A stretch of DNA of 32,714 bases, from the NCBI GenBank assembly GCA_016873475.1, contig VGXI01000014.1:1-32714 (forward strand), read 5' to 3'. Position 1 is the first letter of the stretch. Every line of letters begins with the position of its first letter. The notes below the pieces were generated by a model that was given only the letters and a program-made list of their open reading frames with translations, searched no databases and was not told the origin of the DNA. Positions 225 to 32,714 of the stretch are shown here, piece after piece. The DNA comes from a bacterium. Its GTDB lineage: Bacteria; Krumholzibacteriota; Krumholzibacteriia; JACNKJ01. Made by a program: the position numbers and the translations under genes.

Positions 225-253
225 TTGCCGGGCGGGCGGCGATCGGCTAGGCT
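225..253 (+). promoter_or_regulatory. Candidate sigma70-type promoter for uppP
   Basis: TTGCCG (225-230) and TAGGCT (248-253) are separated by exactly 17 nt and lie about 75 nt before the uppP start, inside the 182-nt divergent region. The -35 matches consensus at 4 of 6 positions and the -10 at 3 of 6. In DNA this GC-rich such matches can be chance. Nothing else was recognised in this intergenic stretch. Confidence 0.25.
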
Positions 254-326: not shown

Positions 327-1145
327 ATGGACCTGCTGCTCTGGCTCAAGGCCGCCGTCCTCGGCATCGTCGAGGGGGCCACGGAGTTCATTCCCGTCTC
401 CTCGACCGGACACCTCATCCTCACCCAGGCCCTGATCGGCTTCGAAGGTGCCAAGGCGAACGCCTTCGTCATCTTCATCCAACTGGGAGCGATCCTGGCC
501 GTGGTCTGGCGCTACCGGGCCAAGCTCTTCGGCGCCCTCTTCGCCCTGCCCCGCGAGGCGGCGGCGCGGCGGCTCTTCGCGAACCTCGTGATCGGCACCC
601 TGCCGGCCATCGCCGTCGGCCTGCCCACCGACGACTGGATCGAGGCGCACCTGTTCAAGCCCCTTCCGGTGGCCCTGGCGCTCATCGCCGGCGGCGTCGC
701 CATCCTGATCATCGAAGGCCGGCAGCGAGCGCAGCGCGCGGCTACCATCGACGACATCACCTGGCGCCTCGCGCTCGGCGTCGGGCTGATCCAGGTGCTC
801 TCGATCGTCTGGCCGGGCATCTCGCGCTCCGGGGCGACCATCCTCGGCGGCCTCGTGCTGGGGCTCTCGCGCGTGGCCGCCACCGAGTTCTCCTTCTTTC
901 TGGCCATTCCGGCGATGCTGGGCGCCTCGATCGTCAAGCTCGCCGGCGTGCGCGGCGAGATGCACGCGTCCGACCTGCCGGTCTTCGCCATCGGCTTCGC
1001 CGTGTCCTTCGTCGTCGCCCTGCTCGTGATCAAGTGGCTGATCGGCTTCGTCTCGCGTCACTCCTTCGTGCCCTTCGCCTGGTACCGCCTCGCCACCGGT
1101 GCGGCGGTGCTGGCGGCGGTGGCCCTGGGCGTGGCCAGGGGCTAG
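327..1145 (+). CDS. uppP: Undecaprenyl-diphosphate phosphatase (UppP/BacA family)
   Basis: This integral membrane enzyme dephosphorylates undecaprenyl diphosphate to the monophosphate, recycling the lipid carrier for peptidoglycan and other surface polymers. Its loss or overexpression changes bacitracin sensitivity in other bacteria. The 272-residue product has the family's usual length. It shows both signatures: EGATEFIPVSSTGHL near the N-terminus (Glu16, Glu20, Ser26, His29) and PGISRSGAT (residues 163-171) with the conserved Arg167. Several hydrophobic helices fill the rest. The reading frame is open upstream to 138, but family alignment and the first hydrophobic segment support ATG 327. 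Only 21 nt separate it from the next gene, an AmpG-like transporter, so the two are probably co-transcribed and both fit cell-wall recycling. Confidence 0.95.
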   Translation: MDLLLWLKAAVLGIVEGATEFIPVSSTGHLILTQALIGFEGAKANAFVIFIQLGAILAVVWRYRAKLFGALFALPREAAARRLFANLVIGTLPAIAVGLPTDDWIEAHLFKPLPVALALIAGGVAILIIEGRQRAQRAATIDDITWRLALGVGLIQVLSIVWPGISRSGATILGGLVLGLSRVAATEFSFFLAIPAMLGASIVKLAGVRGEMHASDLPVFAIGFAVSFVVALLVIKWLIGFVSRHSFVPFAWYRLATGAAVLAAVALGVARG

Positions 1146-17086: not shown

Positions 17087-17125
17087 GAAGCCCAAACCTC
17101 CCCGGGCCCGCGGCCCGCAGCGTCC

Positions 17126-19405
17126 CTAGCTCGGGATGCCGATCAGGATCCCGACGATCACGAGCAGGAGAACGCCCGTGATCAGCGCGTAGGCGTAGCT
17201 CTGGATGCGCCCCGTCTGCAGGCGGCGCAGGCCGGCGCCGGCGTCCTTGCAGGCCGCCGCGGCGCCGTTGACGAGACCGTCGACGAAGCTGCGGTCGATC
17301 CAGCCGCTGAGGGTGGAGACGCCGCGCGTCAGCCAGGCCGAGCCGTTGACCAGCCCGTCGATGACGACGCGATCGAAGCGCGCGCAGGCCCGCATGAGCC
17401 CGAGCACGCCGGCCACCACCGTGGCCCAGTACAGCTCGTCGACGAAGTACTTGTTCACGAGCAGGCGGTGGAAGCCGGCGAAGCGCGCGGCGAGCTGACT
17501 CGGCAACTCCGGCCGCCGCGTGTAGATGGTCAGGGCCGTCAGGCCCGAGGCCGCCGCGCCGAGCACGGACAGCGCCATCAGCAGGTACTCCATGGGATCG
17601 ACGCCGTGGCTCCCGCCGTGGGTCTCGCCCGCGGCGGCCGGCACCTGTGCGTGCGGCGTCTCGGCGTGCTCCCCGGCCGCGGCCGCGGCTGCCGCCTCGT
17701 GCACGGCCTGCAAGCTCTCCTCGTCGCCCGGCTGGCGATGGCCGTCCCCGTTCGTCTCCTCCGGCGCCTGCCCGGGCGCGGGGGTGTCCGCGCGCGCGGG
17801 CGACGCGAGGAAGGGCGCCGCCCCGTGGTGCAGCGCGCCCGCCGGGCGCTCGGCAACGACGGGCTTCAGCCAGCCGTGGAAGCGGTTGGCGCCGCCGAGT
17901 GCGTGCGGCACGCCGACGAAGCCGCCCACCGTGGCGAGCAGCGCCAGCACGACGAGCGGCCAGGTCACCACGCGCGGCTGCTCGCGCAGGTGCTCGCGCG
18001 TGTGGTGGTCGGCGCGGCTCTCGCCGAGGAAGGTGAGGGCGACGAGGCGGAACATGTAGAAGGCGGTCAGCATCGCGCCCAGAAAGCCCAGCAGCCAGAG
18101 GAAGCGGTACCAGCCGCCGGCGGCCCAGGTCTGCCAGAGGATCTCGTCCTTGCTGAAGAAGCCGGCGAAGGGCGGGATGCCTGCGATCGCCACCGTCGAG
18201 ACGAGGAAGGTCCAGAAGGTGACCGGCATCGCCTTGCGCAGGCCGCCCATCTTGCGGATGTCCTGCTCGTGATGCATCGCCAGGATCACGCTGCCCGAGC
18301 CGAGGAAGAGACAGGCCTTGAAGAAGGCGTGCGTCACTAGGTGGAAGATGCCGGCCGAGAAGGCGGCGGCCCCGATCGCGAGCACCATGTAGCCGAGCTG
18401 GCTCACCGTCGAGTAGGCGAGCACCTTCTTGATGTCCGTCTGGGCGAGGCCGATCGTCGCGCTGAAGATGGCGGTCAGGCCCCCCACCGTGGCGACGACG
18501 AGCAGGGCCGTCGGCGCGAGCACGTAGAGCGCGCTCAGGCGCGCCATCATGTAGACGCCCGCCGTCACCATCGTCGCCGCGTGGATGAGGGCGGAGACCG
18601 GCGTCGGGCCGGCCATGGCGTCCGGCAGCCAGACGTAGAGCGGGATCTGCGCGCTCTTGCCCGTGGCGCCGATGAAGAGGCAGATGCCGATCCAGTCGAG
18701 CAGCGGCAGGCCCAGCAGGTGCTTGCCCTGGAGCAGGCCGACGGCCTCGCGGATGCCCGCGAAGCTCAGGGTGCCGCGGCCTTCGCCGGCCAGACCCCAG
18801 AAGAGCAGCAGCATGCCGATCAGGAAGCCGAAGTCGCCGATGCGATTGACGATGAAGGCCTTGTTCCCCGCGCTCGTGTTCGGCAGGTGGCGGAACCAGA
18901 AGCCGATCAGCAGATAGGAGCAGAGGCCGACGCCCTCCCAGCCGACGAACATGAGCAGCAGGTTCTCGGCGAGCACGAGCACCAGCATCGAGAAGCTGAA
19001 CAGATTCAGGTAGGCGAAGAAGCGCCAGATGCCGCCGTCGCCCTTCATGTAGCCGATCGAGTAGATGTGGATCAGCAGGCCGACGCCCGTGACGACGAGC
19101 AGCATCACGCTGCTCAGGGGGTCGAGCGTGAAGGCCACCTTGGCGTCGACGCCCGGGATACCGCCGCCGCCGACGCGCACCCAGTCCCAGAGGGTCTGGG
19201 TGAGGATCCGCGCCTCGACCGCCTGCGCGCGCAGGTGGAAGAAGGCGACGAGCGAGAGCAGGAAGCTGCCGGCGATCGCGCCGACGGCCAGGCCCTGCAC
19301 GAAGCGCGGCCCGAGCCGCTTGCCGAGGAGGATGTTGACGCTGAAGCCGAGCAAGGGCAGGCAGGGGATCCAGCCCAGCGCGTTTTCGATCCAGCTCAGG
19401 TCCAT
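17126..19405 (-). CDS. nuoL: NADH-quinone oxidoreductase subunit L, with a long hydrophilic insert
   Basis: The distal proton-pumping subunit of complex I. It is 759 residues long against about 610-660 for typical NuoL. Conserved elements are FVGWEGVGLCSYLLIGFW (Glu157), ATGKSAQIPLYVWLPDAM (Lys250), AGPTPVSALIHAATMVTAG, and TDIKKVLAYSTVSQLGYM. FSKDEIL follows at about residue 418. The extra length is largely an insert at about residues 515-602 rich in Ala, Pro, His, Glu and Gly, placed before the C-terminal region that forms the lateral helix and last TM (ITGVLLLVIVGILIG). The insert has no recognisable domain. ATG 19405 is the start, 39 nt after the nuoK stop. Confidence 0.95.
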   Translation of the reverse strand: MDLSWIENALGWIPCLPLLGFSVNILLGKRLGPRFVQGLAVGAIAGSFLLSLVAFFHLRAQAVEARILTQTLWDWVRVGGGGIPGVDAKVAFTLDPLSSVMLLVVTGVGLLIHIYSIGYMKGDGGIWRFFAYLNLFSFSMLVLVLAENLLLMFVGWEGVGLCSYLLIGFWFRHLPNTSAGNKAFIVNRIGDFGFLIGMLLLFWGLAGEGRGTLSFAGIREAVGLLQGKHLLGLPLLDWIGICLFIGATGKSAQIPLYVWLPDAMAGPTPVSALIHAATMVTAGVYMMARLSALYVLAPTALLVVATVGGLTAIFSATIGLAQTDIKKVLAYSTVSQLGYMVLAIGAAAFSAGIFHLVTHAFFKACLFLGSGSVILAMHHEQDIRKMGGLRKAMPVTFWTFLVSTVAIAGIPPFAGFFSKDEILWQTWAAGGWYRFLWLLGFLGAMLTAFYMFRLVALTFLGESRADHHTREHLREQPRVVTWPLVVLALLATVGGFVGVPHALGGANRFHGWLKPVVAERPAGALHHGAAPFLASPARADTPAPGQAPEETNGDGHRQPGDEESLQAVHEAAAAAAAGEHAETPHAQVPAAAGETHGGSHGVDPMEYLLMALSVLGAAASGLTALTIYTRRPELPSQLAARFAGFHRLLVNKYFVDELYWATVVAGVLGLMRACARFDRVVIDGLVNGSAWLTRGVSTLSGWIDRSFVDGLVNGAAAACKDAGAGLRRLQTGRIQSYAYALITGVLLLVIVGILIGIPS

Positions 19406-19444
19406 GCCGTTCCCTTCCCGGTCGGGCGCGCCCGGCGCGCCCCG

Positions 19445-19750
19445 TCAGCGCTGGAGGCTGTCCAAGCGATGGGCGTCGATGTCCCGCAGGTTCTGGTAGA
19501 TGGCCAGCACGATGGCCAGGGCGACCGCGGCCTCCGCCGCCGCGAGCACGATGATGAACACCGTGAAGAGCCCGCCCTGGATGCCCGTGGTCGTGTAGTG
19601 GTTGAAGGCGACGAAGTTGAGTCCTGCGGCGTTGAGGATCAGCTCGACGCCCATCAAAATGCCGATCGCATTGCGCCGGCTGAGCACCGTGTAGACGCCG
19701 GCCGCGAAGAGCAGCCCCGCGACGACGAGGAAGTGCGGGAGCCCGATCAT
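19445..19750 (-). CDS. nuoK: NADH-quinone oxidoreductase subunit K
   Basis: A 101-residue, three-helix subunit of the complex I membrane arm, homologous to MrpC and mitochondrial ND4L. The two membrane glutamates of the proton path are present: Glu36 in ILMGVELILNAAGLNFVAF and Glu73 in IIVLAAAEAAVALAI. Size and sequence are normal. Its ATG at 19750 overlaps the nuoJ stop by 4 nt, suggesting translational coupling. Confidence 0.95.
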   Translation of the reverse strand: MIGLPHFLVVAGLLFAAGVYTVLSRRNAIGILMGVELILNAAGLNFVAFNHYTTTGIQGGLFTVFIIVLAAAEAAVALAIVLAIYQNLRDIDAHRLDSLQR

Positions 19751-20295
19751 CGCCCGCCCTCCTTGCCTGCGGCGGGGGCGGCGTCCGCCGCCTCCGGGCC
19801 CTTCACCTCGCGGCGCGCGATGATCACGGCGCCGATCAGGGCGCCGAGCAGGAGCAGCGAGGCCACCTCGAAGGGCAGCAGGTACTTGCCGAGCAGGGCC
19901 CGGCCCAGCTCGGCGCTCATCGGCGCATGGCTCACTTCGGGCCGCAGCGGCCAGTCGCTGCCGAGGATGAGCACCAGGCTCATCATGAAGACCCCGACGG
20001 CGGCCAGCAGCGAGGCCGGACGGTTGAGTATGGGGTTCGTGTTCGCCGCCTGGCCGATGTCGCGCGTGAGCATCACGGCGAAGAGGATCACCACCGTGAT
20101 GCCGCCCACGTAGACGAGCACCTGCATCGCCGCCAGGAAATCCGCCGCGAGCTGGACGTAGAGGCCGGCCACGCCGAGGAAGGTGAAGATCAGCGCGAAG
20201 CCGGAGTAGACGATGTTCCGGCTGCCCGCGACGACGCAGGCCGAGAGCACGGTCAGCGCGGTGAGCGCGAAGAAGACGACGTCGAAGACCCCCAT
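19747..20295 (-). CDS. nuoJ: NADH-quinone oxidoreductase subunit J
   Basis: A 182-residue membrane subunit homologous to ND6. It has five hydrophobic helices and the conserved TM3 region with the pi-bulge-type sequence (AAMQVLVYVGGITVVILFAV), followed by the usual MLTRDI. The C-terminus ends in a short charged Ala/Gly-rich tail. It begins 3 nt after the nuoI stop and overlaps nuoK by 4 nt. Nothing is unusual except the tail. Confidence 0.94.
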   Translation of the reverse strand: MGVFDVVFFALTALTVLSACVVAGSRNIVYSGFALIFTFLGVAGLYVQLAADFLAAMQVLVYVGGITVVILFAVMLTRDIGQAANTNPILNRPASLLAAVGVFMMSLVLILGSDWPLRPEVSHAPMSAELGRALLGKYLLPFEVASLLLLGALIGAVIIARREVKGPEAADAAPAAGKEGGR

Positions 20296-20298
20296 GCC

Positions 20299-20784
20299 CT
20301 ACTCCTCGCTGTCGGCAGCGCCCCCGGGCGCCTTCGGATTCTTGTAGATGGGCAATGGCCCGCGCTCGACGAACTGGTGGTAGAGATCACCGAGATTGGT
20401 CGTCGACGCCTCGAAGCGGGGCGTGAAGTGGATGGAGCCGGTCGGACAGGGCTCCAGGCAGAGCCCGCAGTACATGCACTTGCCGAGGTCGATGTCATAG
20501 CGCCGGAGCATGCGCTCCTTTGTGGCCTCGTCGCGCTCGACCTCGATGTAGATGATGTCGATCGGGCAGGCCTTGGCGCAGGCCAGGCAGCCCGTGCAGA
20601 TCTCGACCTCGTTGACGAGGAAACCCCGGTAGCGCGCGGGCAGCGTCGCCTCGACGTCGACGTCGGGGTACTCGACGGTGATCGGCGGCTGCGTCCAGAG
20701 GTGGCGGGAGGTGATCTTGAGGCCCGTGAGCGTGGTCCGCACCGCGTCCCGGATGTTGGCGAAGTAGTCGGCGACGGCGCCCAT
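20299..20784 (-). CDS. nuoI: NADH-quinone oxidoreductase subunit I (2x[4Fe-4S] ferredoxin-like)
   Basis: A 161-residue peripheral subunit that carries clusters N6a and N6b, passing electrons toward N2 in NuoB. Two CxxCxxCxxxCP motifs are intact: Cys63/66/69/73 (CTGCLACAKACP) and Cys103/106/109/113 (CMYCGLCLEPCP). The N-terminal amphipathic region precedes PPITVEYPD, as in other NuoI. A much longer frame is open upstream, but ATG 20784 has AGGAG a few bases before it and begins 8 nt after the nuoH stop. In an enzyme without NuoE/F/G, this subunit would be a likely entry point for electrons from ferredoxin or another donor. Confidence 0.95.
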   Translation of the reverse strand: MGAVADYFANIRDAVRTTLTGLKITSRHLWTQPPITVEYPDVDVEATLPARYRGFLVNEVEICTGCLACAKACPIDIIYIEVERDEATKERMLRRYDIDLGKCMYCGLCLEPCPTGSIHFTPRFEASTTNLGDLYHQFVERGPLPIYKNPKAPGGAADSEE

Positions 20785-20792
20785 CTCAGCTC

Positions 20793-21899
20793 CTAGAACA
20801 GCCCGGCGACGAGGTCGTAGAGGCCGCGGCCCTTGAAGGCCACCAGCCAGACGGCGCTCATCACCACGTTGAAGACCGCGATCGGCACGAGATACTTCCA
20901 GCAGATGCCCATCAGCTGGTCGACGCGCACGCGCGGCAGGGTCCAGCGGATCTGGAGGATGAGCAGCACGAGGGCGAAGCTCTTGACGAGGAAGACCAAG
21001 GTCCCCAGCGCCGCGCCCCCGAAGCTCCTGGGATCGACCGGCACGCCGGGGAAGTTCCAGCCGCCGAGGAAGAGGGCCGTCGCCACGCCGGAGACGATCC
21101 AGATCGTCGCGAACTCGCCGATGAAGAAGACGCCGAAGCGGATCCCCGAGTACTCCGTGTTGTAGCCGCTGACCAGCTCGCTCTCCGCCTCGGGGATGTC
21201 GAAGGGCAGGCGGTTGTTCTCGGCCAGCGCGCTGATGAAGAACACGAAGAAGGCGAGGAAGGCGAAGGGATTGTGGAAGAGGTTCCAGCGCAGGATGCCG
21301 CCGCCCCCCGCCTGACCGGCCACGATCTCCGAGAGGCTCAGCGAGCCGCTGAGGATGACCACCGTGAGCAGGCTGAGCCCCGTCGGCACCTCGTAGCTCA
21401 CCACCTGCGCCGCGCTGCGAAAGCCGCCCAGCAGCGACCACTTGTTGTTGCTCGCCCAGCCGCTCATCAGGATGCCGGCGACGACGAGGCTGGTCACCGC
21501 CACCAGGTAGACGACACCGACGTTGAGATCGCTGACCACCAGGCGCTGGCCCCAGGGCATCACGACGAGCGTCAGGAAGGTGCCGGTCGCGACCAGGTAG
21601 GGCGCGAGGCGGAAGAGCGGCCGGTCGGCGTCCGCCGGGATGATGTCTTCCTTCAGGATCAGCTTCACGCCGTCGGCGACGAACTGGAGGATGCCCTGCG
21701 GCCCGACCCGGTTCGGCCCGATGCGGTTCTGGATCTTGCCCGCCACGCGGCGCTCGGCGAAGGTGAGCAGGCCGGCGACCAGGCAGGCATAGAGGGCGAT
21801 GCAGAGGAAGGCCGCCACCAGCATGAAACCGAGCTGGATGGCCCAGACCGGACCCGGCAAGCTGTGCTCGGCGATCAGGCCGGCGATCCACTGCTCCAT
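20793..21899 (-). CDS. nuoH: NADH-quinone oxidoreductase subunit H
   Basis: A 368-residue membrane subunit homologous to ND1, which forms much of the quinone chamber at the junction of the two arms. Signatures are ERRVAGKIQNRIGPNRVGPQ (about residues 49-68), the adjacent GILQFVADGVKLILKEDIIP, and PFDIPEAESELVSGYNTEYS (from residue 232), the conserved glutamate-rich loop contacting NuoD and NuoB. GGAGGAAGG lies just before ATG 21899. Length is normal. The gene is between nuoD (19 nt) and nuoI (8 nt). Confidence 0.96.
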   Translation of the reverse strand: MEQWIAGLIAEHSLPGPVWAIQLGFMLVAAFLCIALYACLVAGLLTFAERRVAGKIQNRIGPNRVGPQGILQFVADGVKLILKEDIIPADADRPLFRLAPYLVATGTFLTLVVMPWGQRLVVSDLNVGVVYLVAVTSLVVAGILMSGWASNNKWSLLGGFRSAAQVVSYEVPTGLSLLTVVILSGSLSLSEIVAGQAGGGGILRWNLFHNPFAFLAFFVFFISALAENNRLPFDIPEAESELVSGYNTEYSGIRFGVFFIGEFATIWIVSGVATALFLGGWNFPGVPVDPRSFGGAALGTLVFLVKSFALVLLILQIRWTLPRVRVDQLMGICWKYLVPIAVFNVVMSAVWLVAFKGRGLYDLVAGLF

Positions 21900-21918
21900 G
21901 GTCCCTTCCTCCTGCCGC

Positions 21919-23040
21919 CTAGCGATCGATCTCGGGAGCGACGATGTCCAGGCTGCCGATGATGGCGACCAGGTCCGCGATCATCAGGCCGCGCGCGAGC
22001 GGCTCGGTGATGCTCATCGCCGCGAAGCTGCCGGTGCGGATCTTGACGCGGTGGGGCTGCTTGCCGCCGTCTGCGACGACGTAGTAACCCAGCTCGCCGC
22101 GCGCGCTCTCGGTGCGCACGTAGTACTCGCCCGCCGGCGCCTTGAAGACCTTCTTCTCGTTCCAGAACTCGGGACCCGAGCGCGGCAGGCGCTCGACCGC
22201 CTGGCGCACGAGGCCGACGCACTCGCGCATCTCCTGCACGCGGCACCAGAAGCGGTCCCAGCAGTCGCCCCGCGTGCCCAGCCGGCCCTGCCCCACCGGC
22301 ACCTTGAAGGACAGTTCGGGATAGAGGCCGTAGGGGTCGTCGCGGCGGCAGTCGAAGTCGACGCCGCTTGCGCGCAGGTTGGGCCCGCAGAGCCCGTAGG
22401 CCATGGCGTCGGCCGCGCTGATCACGGCCACCTTGGCCAGGCGCGCGCGGAAGATGCGGTTGAAGGTGATCAGGCGGTCGAACTCGTCCACCGCCGGCAG
22501 GAAGCCGTCGCAGAAGCGCAGGACCTTGTCGGTCCAGCCCTTCGGCGCGTCGTGGCTGACGCCGCCGATGCGCACGTAGTTGTGGGTCAGGCGCGCGCCG
22601 CAGAGCTCCTCGATCAGGTCGTTCACCTTCTCGCGCTCGCGCAGGGCGTGCAGGAAGGGCGTCACGGCGCCCATGTCGGAGGCGTTGGAGCCCACCGCGA
22701 CCAGGTGGCTCGCCAGGCGCACCAGCTCGGCGCTGATCACGCGCAGCAGCTCGCCGCGCTCGGGCACGGCGTGCCCTGCCATCCGCTCGCACGTCACCGC
22801 CCAGCCGTGGTTGGCGTTGATCGCCGCCACGTAGTCGACGCGGTCCGTGAAGGGCATGAACTGGAAGTACTCGAGGCCCTCGGCGATCTTCTCGATGCTG
22901 CGGTGCAGGTAGCCGACGTCGGGCACGCACTGGTGGATGATCTCGCCGTCGGTCTCGAGCTGGAAGCGGAGCACGCCGTGCGTGCTCGGATGCACGGGAC
23001 CCATGTTCAGGGTCATCAGCTCGGTCTTCACTTCTGCCAT
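21919..23040 (-). CDS. nuoD: NADH-quinone oxidoreductase subunit D (49-kDa)
   Basis: A 373-residue peripheral subunit related to [NiFe]-hydrogenase large subunits, lining the quinone site with NuoB and NuoH. It shows [13 protein letters not shown] (His17 and His21 at the quinone site), [15 protein letters not shown], and a C-terminal [14 protein letters not shown]. The hydrogenase-type Ni-binding cysteines are absent, as expected of complex I. The ATG at 23040 lies inside the end of nuoC (13-nt overlap). NuoC and NuoD are separate here, unlike the fused nuoCD of some Proteobacteria. Confidence 0.95.
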
Positions 23041-23552
23041 GACAGCCACTCCCGGTCGCGGCGGGTGGGAATGCCCTGGTAGGCAGGCTGCTCGACGAAG
23101 TCCTTGCGCAGCGGGTGGCCCACCCAATCGTCGGGCAGCATGATCCGCCGCAGGTCCGGGTGCCCCGTGTAGACGATGCCGAGCAGGTCCCAGCTCTCGC
23201 GCTCGTGCCACTCGGCGGCTGGCCAGATGTCGCTCACGGTGGGCACCTGCGGCGCTTCGCGCGGCAGGTCGGTGTGCAGGGTGAGCAGGCGGCCGCCGTG
23301 CGCGTAGCTGCAGAGCGTGATCGTGCTGCGCAGCTTGTTCTCCTTGGGATGGTCGGTGCCCGCCACCTGCTGCAGTGCCTCGAAGTGCAATGCGGGGTCA
23401 TCGCGCAGGGCGAGGCAGAGCGCGTGCAGGCGCTCGGCGGTGACGAGCAGGTCCGGCTGCGGCGCCTCGGGGCGGAAGGTGATGCCCTCCTCGCCGACCA
23501 CGGCCGCGATGCGCGCGAAGAGGGCCTCCGCCTGCTCGCGGGTCATGCTCAT
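23028..23552 (-). CDS. nuoC: NADH-quinone oxidoreductase subunit C (30-kDa)
   Basis: A 174-residue soluble subunit of the connecting module, packing against NuoD and NuoI. The C-terminal third carries the family signature (residues around [19 protein letters not shown], then [10 protein letters not shown] and GHPLRKDF). The start is ATG 23552, which overlaps the nuoB stop in an ATGA. The end overlaps nuoD by 13 nt. A longer open frame upstream is only a shadow of nuoB and nuoA. Length is within the normal range for an unfused NuoC. Confidence 0.94.
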
Positions 23553-24133
23553 CCCTGCGCCTCGCTGCTGGGCGGCGCCGCAAGCGGCGCCGCCTCGGGT
23601 AGACTTGCCGCAGGCAGTCCCGCCGCGGCGGCCGGGGATCGCTTCACCAGGAAGCGCTCGCCCTTGATCTTGCGCTGCAGCTCGGCGATGCCCTCGTAGA
23701 GCGCCTCCGGCCGCGGCGGGCAACCCGGGATGTAGACGTCCACGGGCAGGATGGCGTCCACGCCCTTGACCACGCTGTAGCCGAGGTTGAAGAGGCCGCC
23801 GCAGTTGGCGCAGCTCCCCATCGAGATCACGTAGCGCGGCTCGGCCATCTGCTCGTACATGAGCTTGAGGCGGCTGGCCATCTTGTAGGTGAGCGTGCCG
23901 GCGACGATCAGCAGGTCGCTCTGGCGCGGCGTCGCGCGGAAGACCGAGCCCATGCGGTCGAGGTCGGTGCGCGGCCCGCCGGCCTGCATCAGCTCGATGC
24001 CGCAGCAGGCCAGGGCGCTCAGCATGTACCAGACCGAGTTGCCCCGGGCCAGGTTCATGATCTTGTCCGTGTTCGTGAAGATGGCCACCTCGGGCAAGGT
24101 GTCGACCATCGTCGGCAGTTCGCGCTCCGTCAT
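23549..24133 (-). CDS. nuoB: NADH-quinone oxidoreductase subunit B (cluster N2)
   Basis: A 194-residue subunit that binds the terminal iron-sulfur cluster N2, the donor to quinone. The four ligands are visible: tandem Cys43-Cys44 in [11 protein letters not shown], Cys108 in [10 protein letters not shown] and Cys138 in [12 protein letters not shown]. The C-terminus has an Ala/Pro-rich extension of about 25 residues after FLVKRSP, with no known role. ATG 24133 is 21 nt after the nuoA stop. Confidence 0.96.
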
Positions 24134-24154
24134 GGCGATCTCCCTCGGCCCCGC

Positions 24155-24595
24155 CTACTCGGGCCGGGAACGGGCGTGGCGCCGCAGCTCGATGGGATTG
24201 TCGCTGCGGCTGAGCTGGAGGTCCTTCACCCAGTCCAGGTCGCCCTTGCGCCACAGGTAGACCAGGCCCAGGAAGAGGATCAGGATGAAGAGCAGCACCT
24301 CCGCCAGCACGAACCACCCCTGACCGCTCTCGACGAAGCCGCGCATGACCATCCCGACGGGGAACATGAAGGCGATCTCGACATCGAAGATCAGGAAGGC
24401 GAGCGCGATCAGGTAGAAGCGGATGTTGAACTGCAGCCAGCCGGGGCCGGTGGGCCGCTCGCCGCACTCGTAGCTGGACAGCTTGTCGGCACTGCGATTG
24501 CGGGGCGCGAGCAGCTTGGAGATCGCCAGCAGCGCGAAGATGAACAGGATGCTGAAGAGGACGAAGACGAGCACATTCGCAAACTGGAATAGCAT
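24155..24595 (-). CDS. nuoA: NADH-quinone oxidoreductase subunit A, first gene of the nuo operon
   Basis: A 146-residue, three-helix membrane subunit homologous to ND3. It has the conserved loop SSYECGERP (Cys44 is the residue whose accessibility changes between active and deactive states in mitochondria) and [24 protein letters not shown] 24595 has only a weak ribosome site. It is the first of eleven nuo genes, so the operon promoter should lie in 24596-24891. I could not identify a convincing one on the minus strand. Confidence 0.95.
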
Positions 24596-26874: not shown

Positions 26875-27254
26875 CGCCGACCGCCGCGGCCGGGCCGGCG
26901 CGGTGCGGGCGTGGTCTCCGACGATACGAGCGGCGCGAGCGGCGCGAGCGGCGCGGGCTCGCCGCGGCCCGGACCTGTCTCGTCGGCGTCGAGGGCGTGC
27001 GTGTCCACGATGCCGACGATCGCATGATCCACGGGCACGAACCAGGGGTCAAGGGCGAGGGCTGCTTCGCGGCTGGCGACGAAGTAGACCAGCTCGCCGG
27101 GGCCGGCCATCCGCGTGCCGTCGGCGCAGACCAGCGGGCGCCCCGCGGGCACGAGGTGCTGATCCAGCGGCTGCACCCAGAGCATGGGCACGCCCGCGAG
27201 CCCGTCGGCGACGCGGCAGGGCACGAGCGTGCCGATCACGCGCGCGAACTGCAC
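26871..27254 (-). CDS. BMC-P shell vertex protein (EutN/CcmL family), copy 2, with C-terminal tail
   Basis: A 127-residue EutN/CcmL-family protein with the fold ending at VPVDHAIVGIVDTH (about residue 86). It is divergent: the usual GSSAR loop is replaced by a YFVASREAAL region. About 40 extra residues follow the fold. These are polar and Pro/Arg-rich, with a short PAPLAPLAPLV repeat and a basic RRPGRGGRR end. The tail could face the lumen or cytosol and bind cargo, but nothing shows this. GTG 27254 overlaps the BMC-T stop by one base (TAGTG) with GAGGAGG upstream. I judge family membership likely from fold-wide motifs and operon position. Confidence 0.78.
   Translation of the reverse strand: MQFARVIGTLVPCRVADGLAGVPMLWVQPLDQHLVPAGRPLVCADGTRMAGPGELVYFVASREAALALDPWFVPVDHAIVGIVDTHALDADETGPGRGEPAPLAPLAPLVSSETTPAPRRPGRGGRR
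26928..26954 (-). repeat. Three tandem 9-bp repeats inside the BMC-P copy 2 tail
   Basis: GAGCGGCGC occurs three times in a row on the plus strand. On the coding (minus) strand it encodes the APL-APL-APL stretch of the tail. It is probably a local slippage expansion. Confidence 0.6.
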
Positions 27255-27922
27255 TAGCGCGCCTCCTCGTCATGGCGATCGCCGTGACCGGCGATCGCTG
27301 CTGCCCCGGCTTCTGTCTCCGCATCCGGCGGCGCGAGCGGGGCGCAGAGGGCGAAGCGGCTGCCCGCGGCGAGCAGCGCGCGCAGCGTGTCGTCCAGGCG
27401 CGGGATCAGGGCCTGTTGCGTGAGGCGCGGGCCGAGGCGCGCGGCGCCGGCGGCGAGGGCGGCCTCCACTTCGTCGAGCGCGCCGTCGAAGATCGAGAAG
27501 GCCTTGCCGCCCAGGCCGTCGGCCAGGCGCAGCTCGCGCAGCGTGACCGCGCAGGCCTTGAGCGCGGCGTCCGTGGCGCCGAGCAGCGCGGCGCTCGAGG
27601 CGGCCTCGAGCAGGCCGAGCGCCTCGGACTCGGCGCCGCTGCGCGCGCCGGCGAGCGCAGGGCCCAGCGCTTCGTGGGCGTCGGCGAGAAGGATCTCGTC
27701 GTGCAGGCCCGCCGCGGCCAGGCCCTCCGCGTGCGCCTCCACCACCGAGGCCGTGCTGCCGCCCAGCAGGACGAGGAAGCGGCCCGGCTGCACGCTGCCC
27801 GCGCGGATCAGCGCCACGGGCGCGCGCTTGAGCATGCGGTCGGCGGCGGCCACGCCCGCCGGCACGCCCGCGTACTCGAGCAGGGCGAGAGCCGGATAGC
27901 GCGTGTCGTTGGTCGTCACCAT
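27254..27922 (-). CDS. BMC-T shell protein (tandem BMC domains), copy 2
   Basis: A 222-residue protein with two BMC (Pfam00936-type) domains in tandem: one at about residues 9-68 (ALALLEYAGVPAGVAAADRM, then VALIRAGSVQPGRFLVLLGG) and one at about 100-165 (ALGLLEAASSAALLGATDAA, then GKAFSIFDGALDEVEAAL). Such proteins assemble as pseudohexameric trimers that tile shell facets and can carry larger pores. Both domains start with the LLE-type strand in the same topology. A charged, low-complexity C-terminus follows. It begins 2 nt after the aldehyde dehydrogenase stop. The subtype (single-disc versus stacked) cannot be decided from sequence alone, although the arrangement looks like the single-disc type. 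Confidence 0.85.
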   Translation of the reverse strand: MVTTNDTRYPALALLEYAGVPAGVAAADRMLKRAPVALIRAGSVQPGRFLVLLGGSTASVVEAHAEGLAAAGLHDEILLADAHEALGPALAGARSGAESEALGLLEAASSAALLGATDAALKACAVTLRELRLADGLGGKAFSIFDGALDEVEAALAAGAARLGPRLTQQALIPRLDDTLRALLAAGSRFALCAPLAPPDAETEAGAAAIAGHGDRHDEEAR

Positions 27923-27924
27923 CG

Positions 27925-29379
27925 CTAGACGATCCGGAAGTGGTCCACCAGCACGCAGCGCCGCTCGCGGCTGAAGCTGTGCGGACCGGTGAGCCCCTCC
28001 CCGGTGGGCGAGGCGATGCTGAAGCTCGCGTAGCCCTCGCCGCCGTGGCCGAGCCCGGCGGCGCAGGGGCCGTTCTTGACGAAGATCGACGTGTTGATTT
28101 CCCGCGCCATGCGGCTCAGGCGATCCAGGCGCCTCGAGTGCATCGCGGCCGAGTGGCCGCAGCCGTGCTCGGCGCGCACGGCGAGATCGATCGCCGTGTC
28201 GGCGTCGGCGACGGCGACCACGGGCAGCACGGGCAGCATCTGCTCCGTCCAGACCAGCGGGTGCTCGGCGGGGACGGGCGCCACGAGCAGGCGCGCCGCC
28301 GGATCGCAGGGCGCGCCGATCGCGGCGAGGATCGCCGGCGCGTCCTGGCCGATCCAGCGCTTGGCGATGACGCCGGGCTTGCCAGCGCCGCGCAGTTCGT
28401 CGAAGAGCAGGGGCGTGAGGCGCGCGATCTCGCCCGCGGTCAGCACGCGCGCGCCGTGCCGCTGCATGGCCGCGAGCAGGCCCGCCGCCGCCTCGGCGAC
28501 GACGAAGACCTCCTTCTCGTCCACGCAGATGATGTTGTTGTCCAGCGATGCCCCGAAGGCGATGTCGCGGCCCGCCGCGTCGAGGTCGGCCGTCTCGTCC
28601 ACCACCACGGGCGGGTTGCCCGGCCCCGCGCAGATCGCGCGCTTGCCGCTCGCCATCGCCTCGCGCACGACGCCCGCGCCGCCGGTCACCACGAGCAGGC
28701 GCACGCCCGGGTGGCGCATCAGCGCCTGGGCGCTGGCGATCGTGGGCTCGGCCACCGCGGTGACGAGGTCGGGCGGGCCGCCCGCGGCCAGCACCGCGCG
28801 GTGGATCAGCCGCACGGTCTCGGCCGAGCAGGCCGCCGCGCCCGGATGCGGGTTGAAGACCACCGCGTTGCCGGCGGCGAGCATGCCGATCGCGTTGCAG
28901 ATCACCGTGCTCGTCGGGTTCGTGATCGGCGCGATCGCCGCGATGACGCCGAAGGGCGCGGGCTCCATCAGCACGAGGCCGCGGTCGCCGCTCGCCGCGC
29001 GGGGCGCGAGGGCTTCGGGGCCGGGCGTCTTGAGGGTGACGAGGCGGTTCTTCAGCTCCTTGTCGGCGGCGCGGCCGAGGCCGGTCTCCGCGCGGGCCAG
29101 TTCGCCCAGGCGCGCGGCCGCGGGCAGCAACGCCGCGCGAATGGCGTCGACGAGACGCGCGCGCAGCGAGGGCTCGGCCGCCGCGAGGGCGCGGAAGGCG
29201 CGGCCCGCCGCGGCGACCGCGCCGTCGACATCGGCGTGGATGCCCTCGCCGAGCGCCGCCCCCGGGGGCGGCGCGGCGGCGGGCGCGGGCGCGGCCGCCG
29301 GGGCGACGCCGGCCAGGCCGAGGCGCAGGGCCAGCTCGCCGGCCAGCGCCTTGATCTGGGCCTCGCTGAGGGCGCTCAT
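27925..29379 (-). CDS. CoA-acylating aldehyde dehydrogenase, BMC-encapsulated (PduP/EutE type)
   Basis: A 484-residue enzyme expected to convert acetaldehyde, NAD+ and CoA to acetyl-CoA and NADH inside the microcompartment. It matches PduP/EutE: PFGVIAAIAPITNPTSTVIC, TGGAGVVREAM, the active-site Cys285 in SLDNNIICVDEKEVFVV, and the C-terminal GHGGEGYASFSIASPTGEG. Residues 1-24 form an amphipathic helix (SEAQIKALAGELALRLG), followed by an Ala/Pro linker, the usual form of an encapsulation peptide. ATG 29379 is chosen over GTG 29388, because the short start gives the helix at the extreme N-terminus; neither has a strong ribosome site. Acetaldehyde would come from the DERA domain encoded upstream. 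Confidence 0.93.
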   Translation of the reverse strand: MSALSEAQIKALAGELALRLGLAGVAPAAAPAPAAAPPPGAALGEGIHADVDGAVAAAGRAFRALAAAEPSLRARLVDAIRAALLPAAARLGELARAETGLGRAADKELKNRLVTLKTPGPEALAPRAASGDRGLVLMEPAPFGVIAAIAPITNPTSTVICNAIGMLAAGNAVVFNPHPGAAACSAETVRLIHRAVLAAGGPPDLVTAVAEPTIASAQALMRHPGVRLLVVTGGAGVVREAMASGKRAICAGPGNPPVVVDETADLDAAGRDIAFGASLDNNIICVDEKEVFVVAEAAAGLLAAMQRHGARVLTAGEIARLTPLLFDELRGAGKPGVIAKRWIGQDAPAILAAIGAPCDPAARLLVAPVPAEHPLVWTEQMLPVLPVVAVADADTAIDLAVRAEHGCGHSAAMHSRRLDRLSRMAREINTSIFVKNGPCAAGLGHGGEGYASFSIASPTGEGLTGPHSFSRERRCVLVDHFRIV

Positions 29380-29400
29380 CGCGCGCACCGGCGCGGGCCG

Positions 29401-29700
29401 CTAGTCATCGCGACCTTTCCGATAGCGCTCCTCGCCGCCGATCTCCCAGCTGTCGACGATCGCCATGATGACGGCGTCGCAGGGCCGGTTCTCGGTGGCT
29501 TTCGTTTGCCGGGCGGAGCTGCCGGTGGCAAAGAGCACCTTCTCGCCGATGCCGGCGCCCACGGCGTCGGCGGCCACCACCGTGCCGCCCGTGGGCGCCC
29601 CGTCGGGTCCGAGCTGTCCGAGCAGGAGGAACTTCAGCCCCTCCAGGCTCGGCTCCTTGCGCGTGGCCACCACCGTGCCCAGCACGACGGCCAGGTTCAT
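29401..29700 (-). CDS. BMC-P shell vertex protein (EutN/CcmL family), copy 1
   Basis: A 99-residue pentameric vertex protein and the most canonical of the three copies. The start [21 protein letters not shown], followed by [29 protein letters not shown] and [12 protein letters not shown], is standard EutN/CcmL, including the GSSAR loop. It sits between BMC-H (7 nt) and the aldehyde dehydrogenase (21 nt). Confidence 0.93.
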
Positions 29701-29707
29701 GGCGCGC

Positions 29708-30007
29708 CTACTTCGACTTGGCGGACTCGGCCTGGCGGCCGAGCGGGATCACCATGTCCACGTTGGCGTGCGGGCGCGCGATGATGTGCACGGCGACCAG
29801 CTCGCCCACGCGCGCGGCCGCGGTCTGGCCGGCGTCGCAGGCGGCTTTGACCGCCGCCACGTCGCCGCGGATCACGGCCGTCACGTAGCCGCCGCCGGTC
29901 TTCTCGTAGCTGACCAGCTCGACGCGGGCCGCCTTGACCATGGCGTCGGCCGCTTCCACCATCGCGGGGAAGCAGCGCGTCTCGATCATGCCCAGTGCAT
30001 CTGCCAT
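29708..30007 (-). CDS. BMC-H hexameric shell protein (PduA/EutM type)
   Basis: A 99-residue single-BMC-domain protein forming the hexagonal facet tiles. Canonical features are [20 protein letters not shown], Lys25 at the hexamer edge, the pore loop Lys36-Thr-Gly-Gly-Gly40 (KTGGG where PduA has KIGSG), [18 protein letters not shown], and the conserved HIIARPH. Ala or Gly-rich loops suggest a small polar pore suited to a phosphorylated sugar or similar metabolite, which is inference. The frame is open further upstream, but ATG 30007 is the family start. It is the only BMC-H gene in the operon, so it should be the main facet protein. Confidence 0.95.
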
Positions 30008-30042
30008 TTGCGTCCTTCCTGTGCTCGGGGACCGCGGTCCCC

Positions 30043-30678
30043 CTACCCGTTCTTCTCGTTCGTGCGCCCGCTGAGGGCCTCGATCGCCGCGACGGCGGCC
30101 GGCCAGGCCGCGTCGATGTCCCGCTGCTCGCCGCCGAGATACACGCGCCCGAAGCTGCCGAAGGCGCGCACCTCGAGGATGTTGATCTCGGCCGCCTTCT
30201 CGGCCTCGTTCGCGGCCAGCGCCGCGTAGGCCGCCGGCTCGCACTCGAGGATGTACAGGCTCTCGCCGGCCAGGATCATGTTGCCGTGGCGCATGCGGTT
30301 GATGAGCTGCGTCTGGTAGTCGTCCACGGCGCGGATCACGGTACTCGAGAGCACGCGCGGCTTCAGGCGCTCCTCCTCGCGCACCTGGAGCGCCTCGAGG
30401 ATGGCCCGCCCGGCCTGCCGCACGTCGGCCTGGCTCTTCGAGTGGATCTCGAGCATCCCGTAGAGCCGCTCCACGATCTGCATGCCGGGCGTGACCTGCG
30501 TCGTCTTGAGGGCGATGTCGGTGACGCGGTTGATCTCGATCCCCGGCGAGACCTCGACGAAGAGCGCCGCCTCGTTCGCCGTCGGCAGGAAACCCTGCGC
30601 CACGGTGGCGAGGAAGCTCGCGAACTGCGGCTGCAGCCGATCGAGGAACACATAGGCGCGCAGGTCGACCAAGCCCAT
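30043..30678 (-). CDS. BMC-T shell protein (double BMC domain), copy 1
   Basis: A 211-residue shell protein that starts [20 protein letters not shown] and contains [58 protein letters not shown] and, in the second half, [27 protein letters not shown]. This is the pattern of a double-BMC protein related to those found in planctomycete and Haliangium-type BMCs, with domains of unequal sequence. It differs strongly from the other BMC-T in this operon. ATG 30678 is preferred over 30705 because a GGGGGGACAGG element precedes it and the extra residues are basic and unalignable. The stop of the RpiB-DeoC gene is 10 nt upstream. Confidence 0.85.
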
Positions 30679-30688
30679 CCTGTCCCCC

Positions 30689-32041
30689 CTAGGCCGGCGC
30701 GCCACTCGCGCGCAGGGCCTGTTTCGCTTCCTCGACGATGGCGACGCTCGCGCTCGCGCCCAGGCGCGTGGCGCCGGCCGCGAGCAGGCGCTGCGCGGCC
30801 GCGAAGTCGCGGATGCCGCCCGAGGCCTTGACCCCGAGTCCCGCCGCGCGCACTTCCGCCGCCATCAGCGCGACGTCGGCCACCGTGGCCCCGCCGCCGC
30901 CGAAGCCCGTCGAGGTCTTGACGAAGTGCGCTCGCGCCTGCACGGCGAGGCGGCAGGCGGCGCGCTTCTCACTATCAGTGAGCAGGCAGGTCTCGAGGAT
31001 CACCTTGCAGAGCGCGCCGCCGTCGCGGCAGGCCTCGACGACGGCGCGGATGTCGGCGAGCACGGCCTCGGCCTCGCCGCCCTTGAGCGCGCCGACATTG
31101 AGCACCATGTCGATCTCGCGGGCGCCCTCGCGAATCGCCCGCCGCGCCGCGAAGGCCTTGGTCTCCGGCTGGTCGGCGCCGAGGGGAAAGCCCACCACCG
31201 CGCAGGTGGCGACGCCGCTCCCCGCCAGCTCGGCGGCGACCAGGGGCGCCCAGACCGCGTTCACGCAGGCTGCGGCTGCGCCCAGCGCACGCGCCTCGAC
31301 GGCGAGGCGGCGGACCTGCTCGCGCGTGGCGTCGGGGCGCAGCAGCGTGTGGTCGATCGCGCGCGCGAGGGCGGCCACGCTGAGCCCCGCGGCCGGCGCC
31401 GCGGCAGCGAGCGCCGCCGCCGGTCTCGCGCCCGCCGGCCCCGACCCGCCCCCGGGGGCGACCAGGGGCGCCAGCTCCGCGAGCAGGCGCTCGAGATCGG
31501 CGCTCGAGAGCGGCAGGCCCGCCCCCGCGCCTGAAGAAGGCGCCGGCTCCGCCGGAGTTGTCGCTCCCCCGGCAGAACCGGCAGGGATGGCCGCACGGCC
31601 TCCCGAAATCGTGTCGCCCTCGATCATCGCCACGCGGCGCTGGTGGCGGGCCTCGGTGCAGTCGGTCGCGAGCCAGAGGGCGACGATCTGCCAGGCTAGC
31701 TCGGGGCCAATCAGGCCGGCGCCGAGGGTGAGGACGTTGGCGTCGTTGTGCTCGCGGCTGTTGCGGGCGCTGGAAAGGTCGTAGGCGAGGGCCGCGCGCA
31801 CGCCGGGCACCTTGTTGGCCACCATCGAGGAGCCGATGCCCGCCCCGTCGACCATGATGCCCCGCTCCGCGCGCCCCGCGGCCACGGCCTCGGCGACCTG
31901 GCGCGCGAAGACCGGGTAGTCCACGGCTTCATTCGATGAAGTGCCGAGGTCGAGCACCTGGTGGCTCGCCGCGCGCAGCTTCAGGGAGAGCTGCTCCTTG
32001 AGGGCATAGCCGCCGTGGTCCGCACCGAGGGCAATCCTCAT
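30689..32041 (-). CDS. RpiB-like sugar-phosphate isomerase fused to deoxyribose-phosphate aldolase (DERA)
   Basis: A 450-residue bifunctional protein. Residues 1-147 are RpiB-like (ADHGGYALKEQL; GIMVDGAGIGSSMVANK; SREHNDANVLTLGAG with His98; RHQRRV with Arg132). Asp65 and Ala67 replace the Cys66 and Thr68 of E. coli RpiB. Residues 148-219 are a Gly/Ala/Pro linker holding an amphipathic helix, LSSADLERLLAELAPLV (178-194). Residues 220-450 are DeoC/DERA: AIDHTLL, REIDMVLNVGALK (Asp311), Schiff-base Lys375 in FVKTSTGF, and Lys405 in GVKASGGIR. DERA splits 2-deoxyribose-5-phosphate into acetaldehyde and glyceraldehyde-3-phosphate. It starts the BMC gene block; GAAGG is the ribosome site before ATG 32041. 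Confidence 0.93.
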   Translation of the reverse strand: MRIALGADHGGYALKEQLSLKLRAASHQVLDLGTSSNEAVDYPVFARQVAEAVAAGRAERGIMVDGAGIGSSMVANKVPGVRAALAYDLSSARNSREHNDANVLTLGAGLIGPELAWQIVALWLATDCTEARHQRRVAMIEGDTISGGRAAIPAGSAGGATTPAEPAPSSGAGAGLPLSSADLERLLAELAPLVAPGGGSGPAGARPAAALAAAAPAAGLSVAALARAIDHTLLRPDATREQVRRLAVEARALGAAAACVNAVWAPLVAAELAGSGVATCAVVGFPLGADQPETKAFAARRAIREGAREIDMVLNVGALKGGEAEAVLADIRAVVEACRDGGALCKVILETCLLTDSEKRAACRLAVQARAHFVKTSTGFGGGGATVADVALMAAEVRAAGLGVKASGGIRDFAAAQRLLAAGATRLGASASVAIVEEAKQALRASGAPA

Positions 32042-32097: not shown

Positions 32098-32442
32098 CTA
32101 GGACCAGACCTGGGAGTCGTCGCTGGGGCGCCGGCCCGTGATCGGCCGGATGCCCCCCGCCTCCAGTTCCACGATGGCCTGCAACTTCCGAACGTGAAGC
32201 TTGAGGGCGCTCACTCCCTGCTCCGTGAGCTGGAAGCGGGTCCAGGAACGCCCGCCCCGGCTGCCCTTGAGGATCTCCAGGTAGCCGGCGCCGGCGAGCT
32301 TGCGGGTCTGCACATGCAAGTTGCCGTCTGCCAGGCCGGTGCGCTGCTTGAGATCCGTGAAGGCCACCGGCTCGCCGGTGATGAGCGCGGCGACGATGCC
32401 CATCCGGGCAGCCGAGCTGAGCGTTTCGTCGAAGTCGGGCAA
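32098..32442 (-). CDS. Winged-helix transcriptional regulator (HTH_34/HTH_27-like, ArsR/MarR-related)
   Basis: A 114-residue DNA-binding protein with a single winged-helix domain and no visible ligand domain. The order is RMGIVAALITGEPVAFTDLK (helices 1-2), RTGLADGNLHVQTRKLAGAG (helix 2-3, recognition), LEILKG-RGGRSWTRFQLT (wing) and GVSALKLHVRKLQAIVE (C-terminal helix). These small regulators often sit beside membrane-protein genes. TTG 32442 is the only usable start: an in-frame TGA lies about 48 nt upstream with no ATG or GTG between, and GGGGAG precedes it. It lies 56 nt upstream of the BMC operon on the same strand and divergent from the gene at 32646. Confidence 0.82.
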   Translation of the reverse strand: MPDFDETLSSAARMGIVAALITGEPVAFTDLKQRTGLADGNLHVQTRKLAGAGYLEILKGSRGGRSWTRFQLTEQGVSALKLHVRKLQAIVELEAGGIRPITGRRPSDDSQVWS

Positions 32443-32475
32443 GGGCGCTGCTCCCCTCTCAGCTTCACGATCGAA

Positions 32476-32504
32476 AGTCTGCTCCGATCATCGACAGCCG
32501 TCAA
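32476..32504 (-). promoter_or_regulatory. Candidate promoter for the regulator (minus strand)
   Basis: On the minus strand, TTGACG (complement of 32499-32504) is followed after 17 nt by CAGACT (complement of 32476-32481; 3 of 6). The -35 lies within the left arm of the palindrome at 32496-32520, so the regulator could repress itself. Confidence 0.35.
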
Positions 32505-32520
32505 GACTTTCTTGACGGCT
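32496..32520. promoter_or_regulatory. Perfect 11-3-11 inverted repeat, likely regulator operator
   Basis: AGCCGTCAAGA (32496-32506), spacer CTT, and TCTTGACGGCT (32510-32520) form an uninterrupted 25-bp symmetrical site in the divergent region between the regulator and the gene at 32646. Its size suits a dimeric winged-helix protein. Both arms contain a TTGACG hexamer that could serve as a -35, one for each direction, so occupancy would block both promoters. A stem-loop RNA role is possible but less likely given the 3-nt loop and no downstream T-run. Confidence 0.7.
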
Positions 32521-32540
32521 TTCGGCGGCCGAGCTTCAAT
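32512..32540 (+). promoter_or_regulatory. Candidate promoter for the gene at 32646 (plus strand)
   Basis: TTGACG (32512-32517, 5 of 6), a 17-nt spacer and TTCAAT (32535-32540, 4 of 6) form the best sigma70-like promoter in the window. The -35 overlaps the right arm of the palindrome. The distance to ATG 32646 is about 105 nt. Confidence 0.5.
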
Positions 32541-32645
32541 GCGTGAAGTATCGCCCGCCCTTCGCGCCCCCACTTGCGGCGGAGCCCGGCGCGCGGCATC
32601 TCTCCCTGGCCCGGCCCGGCCGGCCCCACGCGGAGGCAAGCCCGA

Positions 32646-32714
32646 ATGTCGATGAAGCGCATCCTGATCGGCCTTGGCGGCCTGATCGTCCTGCTCCTGA
32701 TCGCCGCTCCCCCC
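32646..32714 (+). CDS. N-terminus of a membrane or secreted protein of unknown family (runs off the window)
   Basis: Only 23 codons are present. They read as Met-Ser-Met, then Lys-Arg, then an uninterrupted hydrophobic stretch (ILIGLGGLIVLLLIA), consistent with a signal sequence or first transmembrane helix. GGAGG lies about 7 nt before ATG 32646; ATG 32652 is an alternative. The gene is divergent from the winged-helix regulator and shares the palindromic control region, so it is probably a regulated partner of that protein. Confidence 0.6.
   Translation, partial: MSMKRILIGLGGLIVLLLIAAPP

Follow-up and report, generated by a model that had tools for sequence, protein, structure and literature searches.

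In Escherichia coli, the lac operon has its promoter operator at +11 and two auxiliary ones, the first at -82 and the second within lacZ at +401, and the control of the deo genes by DeoR involves multiple operators, with looping over distances of up to about 900 bp (PMC4217526). The sugar phosphate utilisation (SPU) bacterial microcompartment (BMC) loci, as described in the main texts of two surveys (PMC4207490, PMC8217296), combine a DeoC aldolase and an RpiB isomerase with shell proteins and an aldehyde dehydrogenase, and an RpiB-DeoC fusion is reported there from Marinimicrobia. A key-term search of these main texts retrieved no description of an SPU operator or of an HTH_34 regulator; literature searches on HTH_34 operators, on SPU regulation and on Woeseiaceae microcompartments yielded nothing relevant, and no operator for the HTH_34 family was found by them. 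An SPU operator and its HTH_34 regulator are the new elements proposed here. The main finding, as read from the comparison of sequences, is a conserved array of putative operators with two intragenic members, and not the 25-bp palindrome to which a preliminary description of this DNA had drawn attention.

The window, i.e. the whole stretch of 32,714 nucleotides that was analysed, is an entire contig (C14) of a 3.6 Mb genome in 425 contigs. The genes at its right end are those given in the preliminary description, viz. a gene for a 114-aa regulator with a TTG start (32098..32442, minus strand), an rpiB-deoC fusion (30689..32041, minus strand; PF02502 and PF01791, with TIGR00126 for deoC) that starts 56 nt beyond the regulator gene on the same strand, and a divergent gene on the plus strand, here found to be AsmA-like, whose 5' end (32646..32714) lies in the window and which continues on contig C230 (C230:360-2717), where the Pfam match to AsmA (E 2.1e-5) is under the cut-off of Pfam. 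The fusion is the first gene of a BMC operon, the remainder of which (27254..30705, minus strand) encodes a CcmP-like trimer shell protein, BMC-H, BMC-P, an acylating aldehyde dehydrogenase and BMC-T, in a gene order matching that of relatives. The cluster of BMC shell genes includes here a DeoC-type aldolase (PF01791) and an RpiB-type isomerase (PF02502), which by the definition of PMC8217296 and PMC4207490 makes this an SPU-type microcompartment locus, and RpiB-DeoC is the signature of these microcompartments. The CcmP-like shell protein (30043-30705, minus strand) matches NF053796 with an E value of 5.5e-100, slightly under the cut-off of this model. On the same strand the BMC operon is followed by respiratory complex I (nuo) genes (15566-24595), and a NuoA match likewise lies beyond the BMC operon of the closest relative. 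Bases 1-423 of contig C230 overlap the right end of the window (32290-32712) with ~96% identity and represent a strain-variant copy of it; the two differ at 18 positions, 16 of them non-coding.

Residues 13-91 of the regulator match the HTH_34 winged helix (PF13601) with a score of 57.1 bits against a gathering cut-off of 27 (E 2.1e-15), and its AlphaFold model (pLDDT 86) has 1ub9 as the best Foldseek match (TM 0.72/0.82). The predicted fold would place the protein in the 1ub9/MarR/PadR/ArsR-type group of dimeric winged-helix proteins, and the regulator is probably dimeric. A sequence search of the PDB gave no relative, NCBIfam holds no model for it, and no obvious tetramerisation or ligand domain is seen. 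Its predicted DNA-contact helix, DGNLHVQT, is invariant among the orthologs. With 1ub9 (Pyrococcus horikoshii), the closest fold for HTH_34 proteins, it has in common a single winged-helix domain and a C-terminal helix, whereas the regulator additionally has a disordered linker and, at its C-terminus, an invariant VW motif. This predicted-disordered linker (32098-32145, minus strand) ends in DDSQVWS; all 36 orthologs that were aligned have the VW at their very C-terminus, and no other protein of these loci contains the motif.

Orthologs of the regulator, showing 42-62% identity, were collected from 56 loci in a GTDB contig collection, the promoters being compared for 55 regions, and of the 80 genomes of its class 44 contain matches to the regulator. 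Wherever an ortholog locus extends far enough downstream, rpiB-deoC is the next gene after that of the regulator, and is followed, as far as the contigs reach, by the same shell genes and aldehyde dehydrogenase. The upstream regions of these orthologs contain a conserved palindromic word, ACTTCAT-N3-ATGAAGT (a 17-bp dyad), and in the window this putative operator occurs, on the minus strand, at four positions. The upstream operator O1 (32533..32549; ACTTCACGCATTGAAGC) has 1 mismatch to ACTTCAN5TGAAGT and is, the strain copy aside, one of just two perfect RCTTCAN5TGAAGY sites in the genome. The promoter operator O2 (32462..32478; ACTTTCGATCGTGAAGC), which lies over the -10 region, is weak (3 mismatches), but its position, 26 nt downstream from where the -35 begins, is the conserved one. 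O3 (32184..32200; GCTTCACGTTCGGAAGT) is an intragenic site in codons 81-87 of the regulator gene, being a 1-mismatch RCTTCAN5TGAAGY site with 2 mismatches versus the strict consensus, and O4 (31926..31942; ACTTCATCGAATGAAGC), a perfect RCTTCAN5TGAAGY site, covers codons 34-39 of rpiB-deoC. The differences between the window and contig C230 are clustered just past the palindrome and around O1, with none inside O1 or O2; all 17 bases of O1 are identical in the two, whereas 6 of the 12 adjacent bases differ.

The arrangement of these sites is conserved as well. O1 and O2 are 71 bp apart in the window, as in relatives, and a second copy of the word is present 70-72 bp upstream of O2 in 35 of the 55 loci as against 0 in 20 shuffles. 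O3 is found at the same place in relatives, and O4 at the same place in relatives from several phyla. In the interval that runs from -2000 to +6000 relative to the regulator start, sites that are near-perfect (at most 1 mismatch) are located at -600..0, at +233..242 within the regulator gene and at +443..521 within rpiB, with only two others. Several copies of one operator are thus present near and inside the operon, as in multi-operator repression of the lac/deo type. All four sites are present in the family of this genome, in Eisenbacteria (O3 weak), in Ust_3 and in most Gammaproteobacteria; O1, O2 and O4 are present in a group labelled Latescibacterota/Fibrobacter/Gemmatimonas and in locus L058, and the Acidobacteriota-type loci have O1 and O2 only. 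It is chiefly in Gammaproteobacteria, and in one lineage besides, that O3 comes near the consensus. The Krumholzibacteriia-like loci (L054-L072) are without O3 and O4, and several of them show three to five upstream sites with a spacing of 55-62 or 70-71 bp. Due to their being missing from the Acidobacteriota-type and Krumholzibacteriia-type loci, O3 and O4 should not be interpreted as essential to the system.

The pairing of the protein with this operator is based on their co-occurrence. In 78 genomes of the class, exact ACTTCAN5TGAAGT is found at 20 places, 13 of them no further than about 700 bp from the gene for this regulator; in the genome of the window, 14 operator-like sites (at most 1 mismatch) were counted versus 26 for a reversed-pattern control. 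In view of this clustering, and of the lack of enrichment elsewhere in its own genome, the regulator appears to be local, with no other clear targets there. In genome G046, two exact operators 183 bp apart are present on a contig (C111:17246-17445) different from that with the regulator match, and they mark a possible second target.

If the likeness of O3 and O4 to the operator resulted merely from conservation of the peptides encoded at these positions, viz. LHVxKL in the regulator and GTSSxEA in RpiB, then these sites would not be operators, and both of them do lie within fairly conserved peptide stretches. However, near-perfect O3 is present in 22 loci versus a mean of 1.1 (maximum 4) in synonymous shuffles, which keep the protein and the codon pool of each gene, and near-perfect O4 in 27 loci versus a mean of 0.18 (maximum 2). 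When Gammaproteobacteria and the Krumholzibacteriia-like group are left out, O4 is still found in 8 of 13 loci where 0.05 are expected, and the O4 of the window was reached by 4 of 3000 shuffles. With observed counts so far above those of the shuffles, conservation of the proteins does not account for O3 and O4. Further, the rare codons CTT, TTA, ACT and TCA are picked exactly at O3 and O4; the O4 codons ACT, TCA, AAT and GAA have shares of 4, 3, 7 and 12% among the synonymous codons of this operon, the window having 71% GC, and it is at O3 and O4 that codon bias peaks most strongly in the regulator gene and rpiB (the scores ignore relatedness, and their ranking alone is used). The amino acids also vary in step with the DNA word (R/M at regulator residue 85, N/R/H at RpiB residue 37), i.e. 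residues change while the word is preserved. Conserved peptides are thus a very improbable explanation, and O3 and O4 are, by the shuffles and the codons, under selection, with rare codons preserving them.

The palindrome of the preliminary description, AGCCGTCAAGA-CTT-TCTTGACGGCT, is present exactly as given there, with perfect 11-bp arms and a 3-nt centre (32496..32520), and it is sited between O1 and O2 and holds TTGACG on each strand. It was thought to be itself the operator of the 114-aa regulator, so that one bound dimer would shut both divergent promoters, and its perfect symmetry, the -35 that each arm contains, its centre near the midpoint of O1 and O2, and its uniqueness in the genome would fit such a role. 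However, it is missing from 54 of the 54 other ortholog promoters, in which the longest perfect arm in the O1-O2 interval is at most 6 versus 11 in the window, though the contact helix of the protein is invariant; it is ACTTCAN5TGAAGT that flanks both sides instead. In the strain copy, moreover, one arm of the palindrome is changed while O1 and O2 are intact, and a better conserved operator exists. That the palindrome serves as the operator of this regulator is, in our judgement, extremely improbable.

The genome-wide search for the palindrome that the preliminary description recommended was carried out, and it is unique in its own genome except for the variant on C230: neither the whole palindrome (at most 3 mismatches) nor its core (0-1 mismatch) has another copy there, the C230 variant having one arm base changed, and the core is not commoner than a reversed control. 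In a search of 193 genomes with 2 mismatches, matches with 0-1 mismatch were limited to the window and the strain copy, the rest being at control level. The window contains two further palindromes with arms of at least 11 bp, and at least one such palindrome arose in 2 of 15 first-order Markov simulations, so that the mere existence of this palindrome is uncommon but not extraordinary. A role as an RNA hairpin was rejected, because both predicted start points are downstream of the palindrome.

The minus-strand TTGACG of the palindrome (32499..32504) is the predicted -35 hexamer of the regulator/BMC promoter; this -35 is of the TTGACA type, a TTGA-- hexamer starting 25-29 nt before O2 in each of the 55 loci, 49 of which have TTGAC-, and the geometry of a -35 with O2 over the -10 is seen in 55 of 55. 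As for the -10 boxes envisaged 17 nt from each TTGACG, the plus strand has TTCAAT, a moderate match (4/6 of TATAAT), and the minus strand has CAGACT (32476..32481), which is weak (3/6), though its position fits that of the GATA(A/C)-type -10 of relatives. The candidate divergent promoter, TTGACG-N17-TTCAAT (32512..32540, plus strand), would serve the AsmA-like gene. A stricter promoter/terminator scanner reported no promoter or terminator in this region of the window. The claim of a divergently controlled gene is based on this one 9/12 promoter match in the window; no AsmA match was obtained at the 57 ortholog loci searched, and the upstream gene, where readable in Woeseiaceae, is co-directional with the regulator. 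At L026 and other Woeseiaceae loci, the co-directional gene (about -890 to -138) has a C-terminus that is, judged from sequence alone, DeoD-like (purine nucleoside phosphorylase), which fits nucleoside breakdown.

The palindrome could also be the site of another regulator, or a functional divergent promoter pair by which the AsmA-like gene is co-regulated, and either would be compatible with the explanation that we prefer. The length and symmetry of the palindrome speak for such a role, as does retention of both plus-strand hexamers in the strain copy; against it, the genome has no second copy, relatives have none, and no AsmA neighbour is seen elsewhere. We regard this as possible, though doubtful. 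The palindrome is best described as a feature that this species has added around the -35; it is probably a divergent promoter within a shared control region and possibly a product of chance. In the window, O1 overlaps the would-be plus-strand -10 (TTCAAT) and O2 the would-be minus-strand -10, and due to this a dual shut-off could work through O1 and O2; one regulator may therefore close both divergent promoters by way of these sites, in this species only.

The explanation that we prefer, to which we assign a probability of roughly 0.78, is that the 114-aa HTH_34 protein is a dedicated autorepressor of the SPU BMC operon acting through the O1-O4 array, most likely with looping. A probably dimeric winged-helix protein and a 17-bp dyad over the -10 make autorepression the simplest reading. 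The regulator dimer would recognise ACTTCAT-N3-ATGAAGT; when O2 is occupied the -10 region would be covered and RNA polymerase blocked, at what would be the only conserved promoter for the regulator, rpiB-deoC and the shell genes. No promoter-like signal was found between the regulator and rpiB by a consensus scan, and this, together with O4 inside rpiB, extends the same control to the BMC operon. The preliminary suggestion that the regulator governs its own promoter and perhaps the BMC operon is in this respect upheld, the latter being very likely, as rpiB-deoC is always the next gene and conserved operators are present at the promoter and inside rpiB. The other three sites, O1 at 71 bp upstream and O3 and O4 at about 278 and 536 bp downstream, would be auxiliary operators raising the occupancy of O2. 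Loops of DNA that join bound dimers would be the most likely means, and road-blocks may contribute; looping is suggested as their role because such auxiliary sites recall lac and deo, and for a regulator without an obvious tetramerisation domain it is an inference. Deoxyribose- or ribose-phosphate metabolites might relieve the repression, pentose phosphates being a guess from the pathway.

The weak O2 of the window and its poor -10 count against this explanation; further, the 71 bp between O1 and O2 do not correspond to an integral number of helical turns, and some lineages have 55-62 or 84 bp. If the protein were instead an activator or a dual regulator, activating from O1 and repressing from O2 without looping, then O3 and O4 would be road-blocks only. 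The place of O1 upstream of the -35, at a near-fixed 70-72 bp from O2, and the poor -10 boxes, like those of activator-dependent promoters, are in keeping with this; however, an operator over the -10 region is typical of repression, and the intragenic operators look like auxiliary sites of the lac O2 type and not like sites of activation. An activating or dual role without looping is on these grounds unlikely. As a more speculative extension of autorepression, which we think improbable, the invariant C-terminal -DDSxVW tail of the repressor might join dimers and so bring about looping, or might bind the repressor to the organelle or to enzymes of the organelle, giving feedback of assembly or substrate on transcription through a four-operator array whose intragenic pair steers both codons and amino acids.

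The regulator, its operator word and the promoter geometry are readable by phylogenetic footprinting, and they provide both a marker of SPU loci and a candidate for an inducible system, while O3 and O4 are a clear example from nature of coding sequence that has been maintained as regulatory DNA across phyla. The locus resembles lac in having operators at the promoter, upstream of it and in the first structural gene, with the repressor gene beside the operon. However, LacI is tetrameric, whereas the protein here is a 114-aa HTH_34 regulator with a different operator word, for which looping is inferred; and, unlike in lac, the regulator gene lies inside the controlled stretch and there are two intragenic operators, one of them in the repressor's own gene. 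With deo it shares the control of a deoC-type deoxyribose-phosphate catabolism and the presence of several distant operators, but the regulator family and the operator are unrelated, the gene for DeoR is located apart from deo, and two of the operators described here are part of coding DNA.
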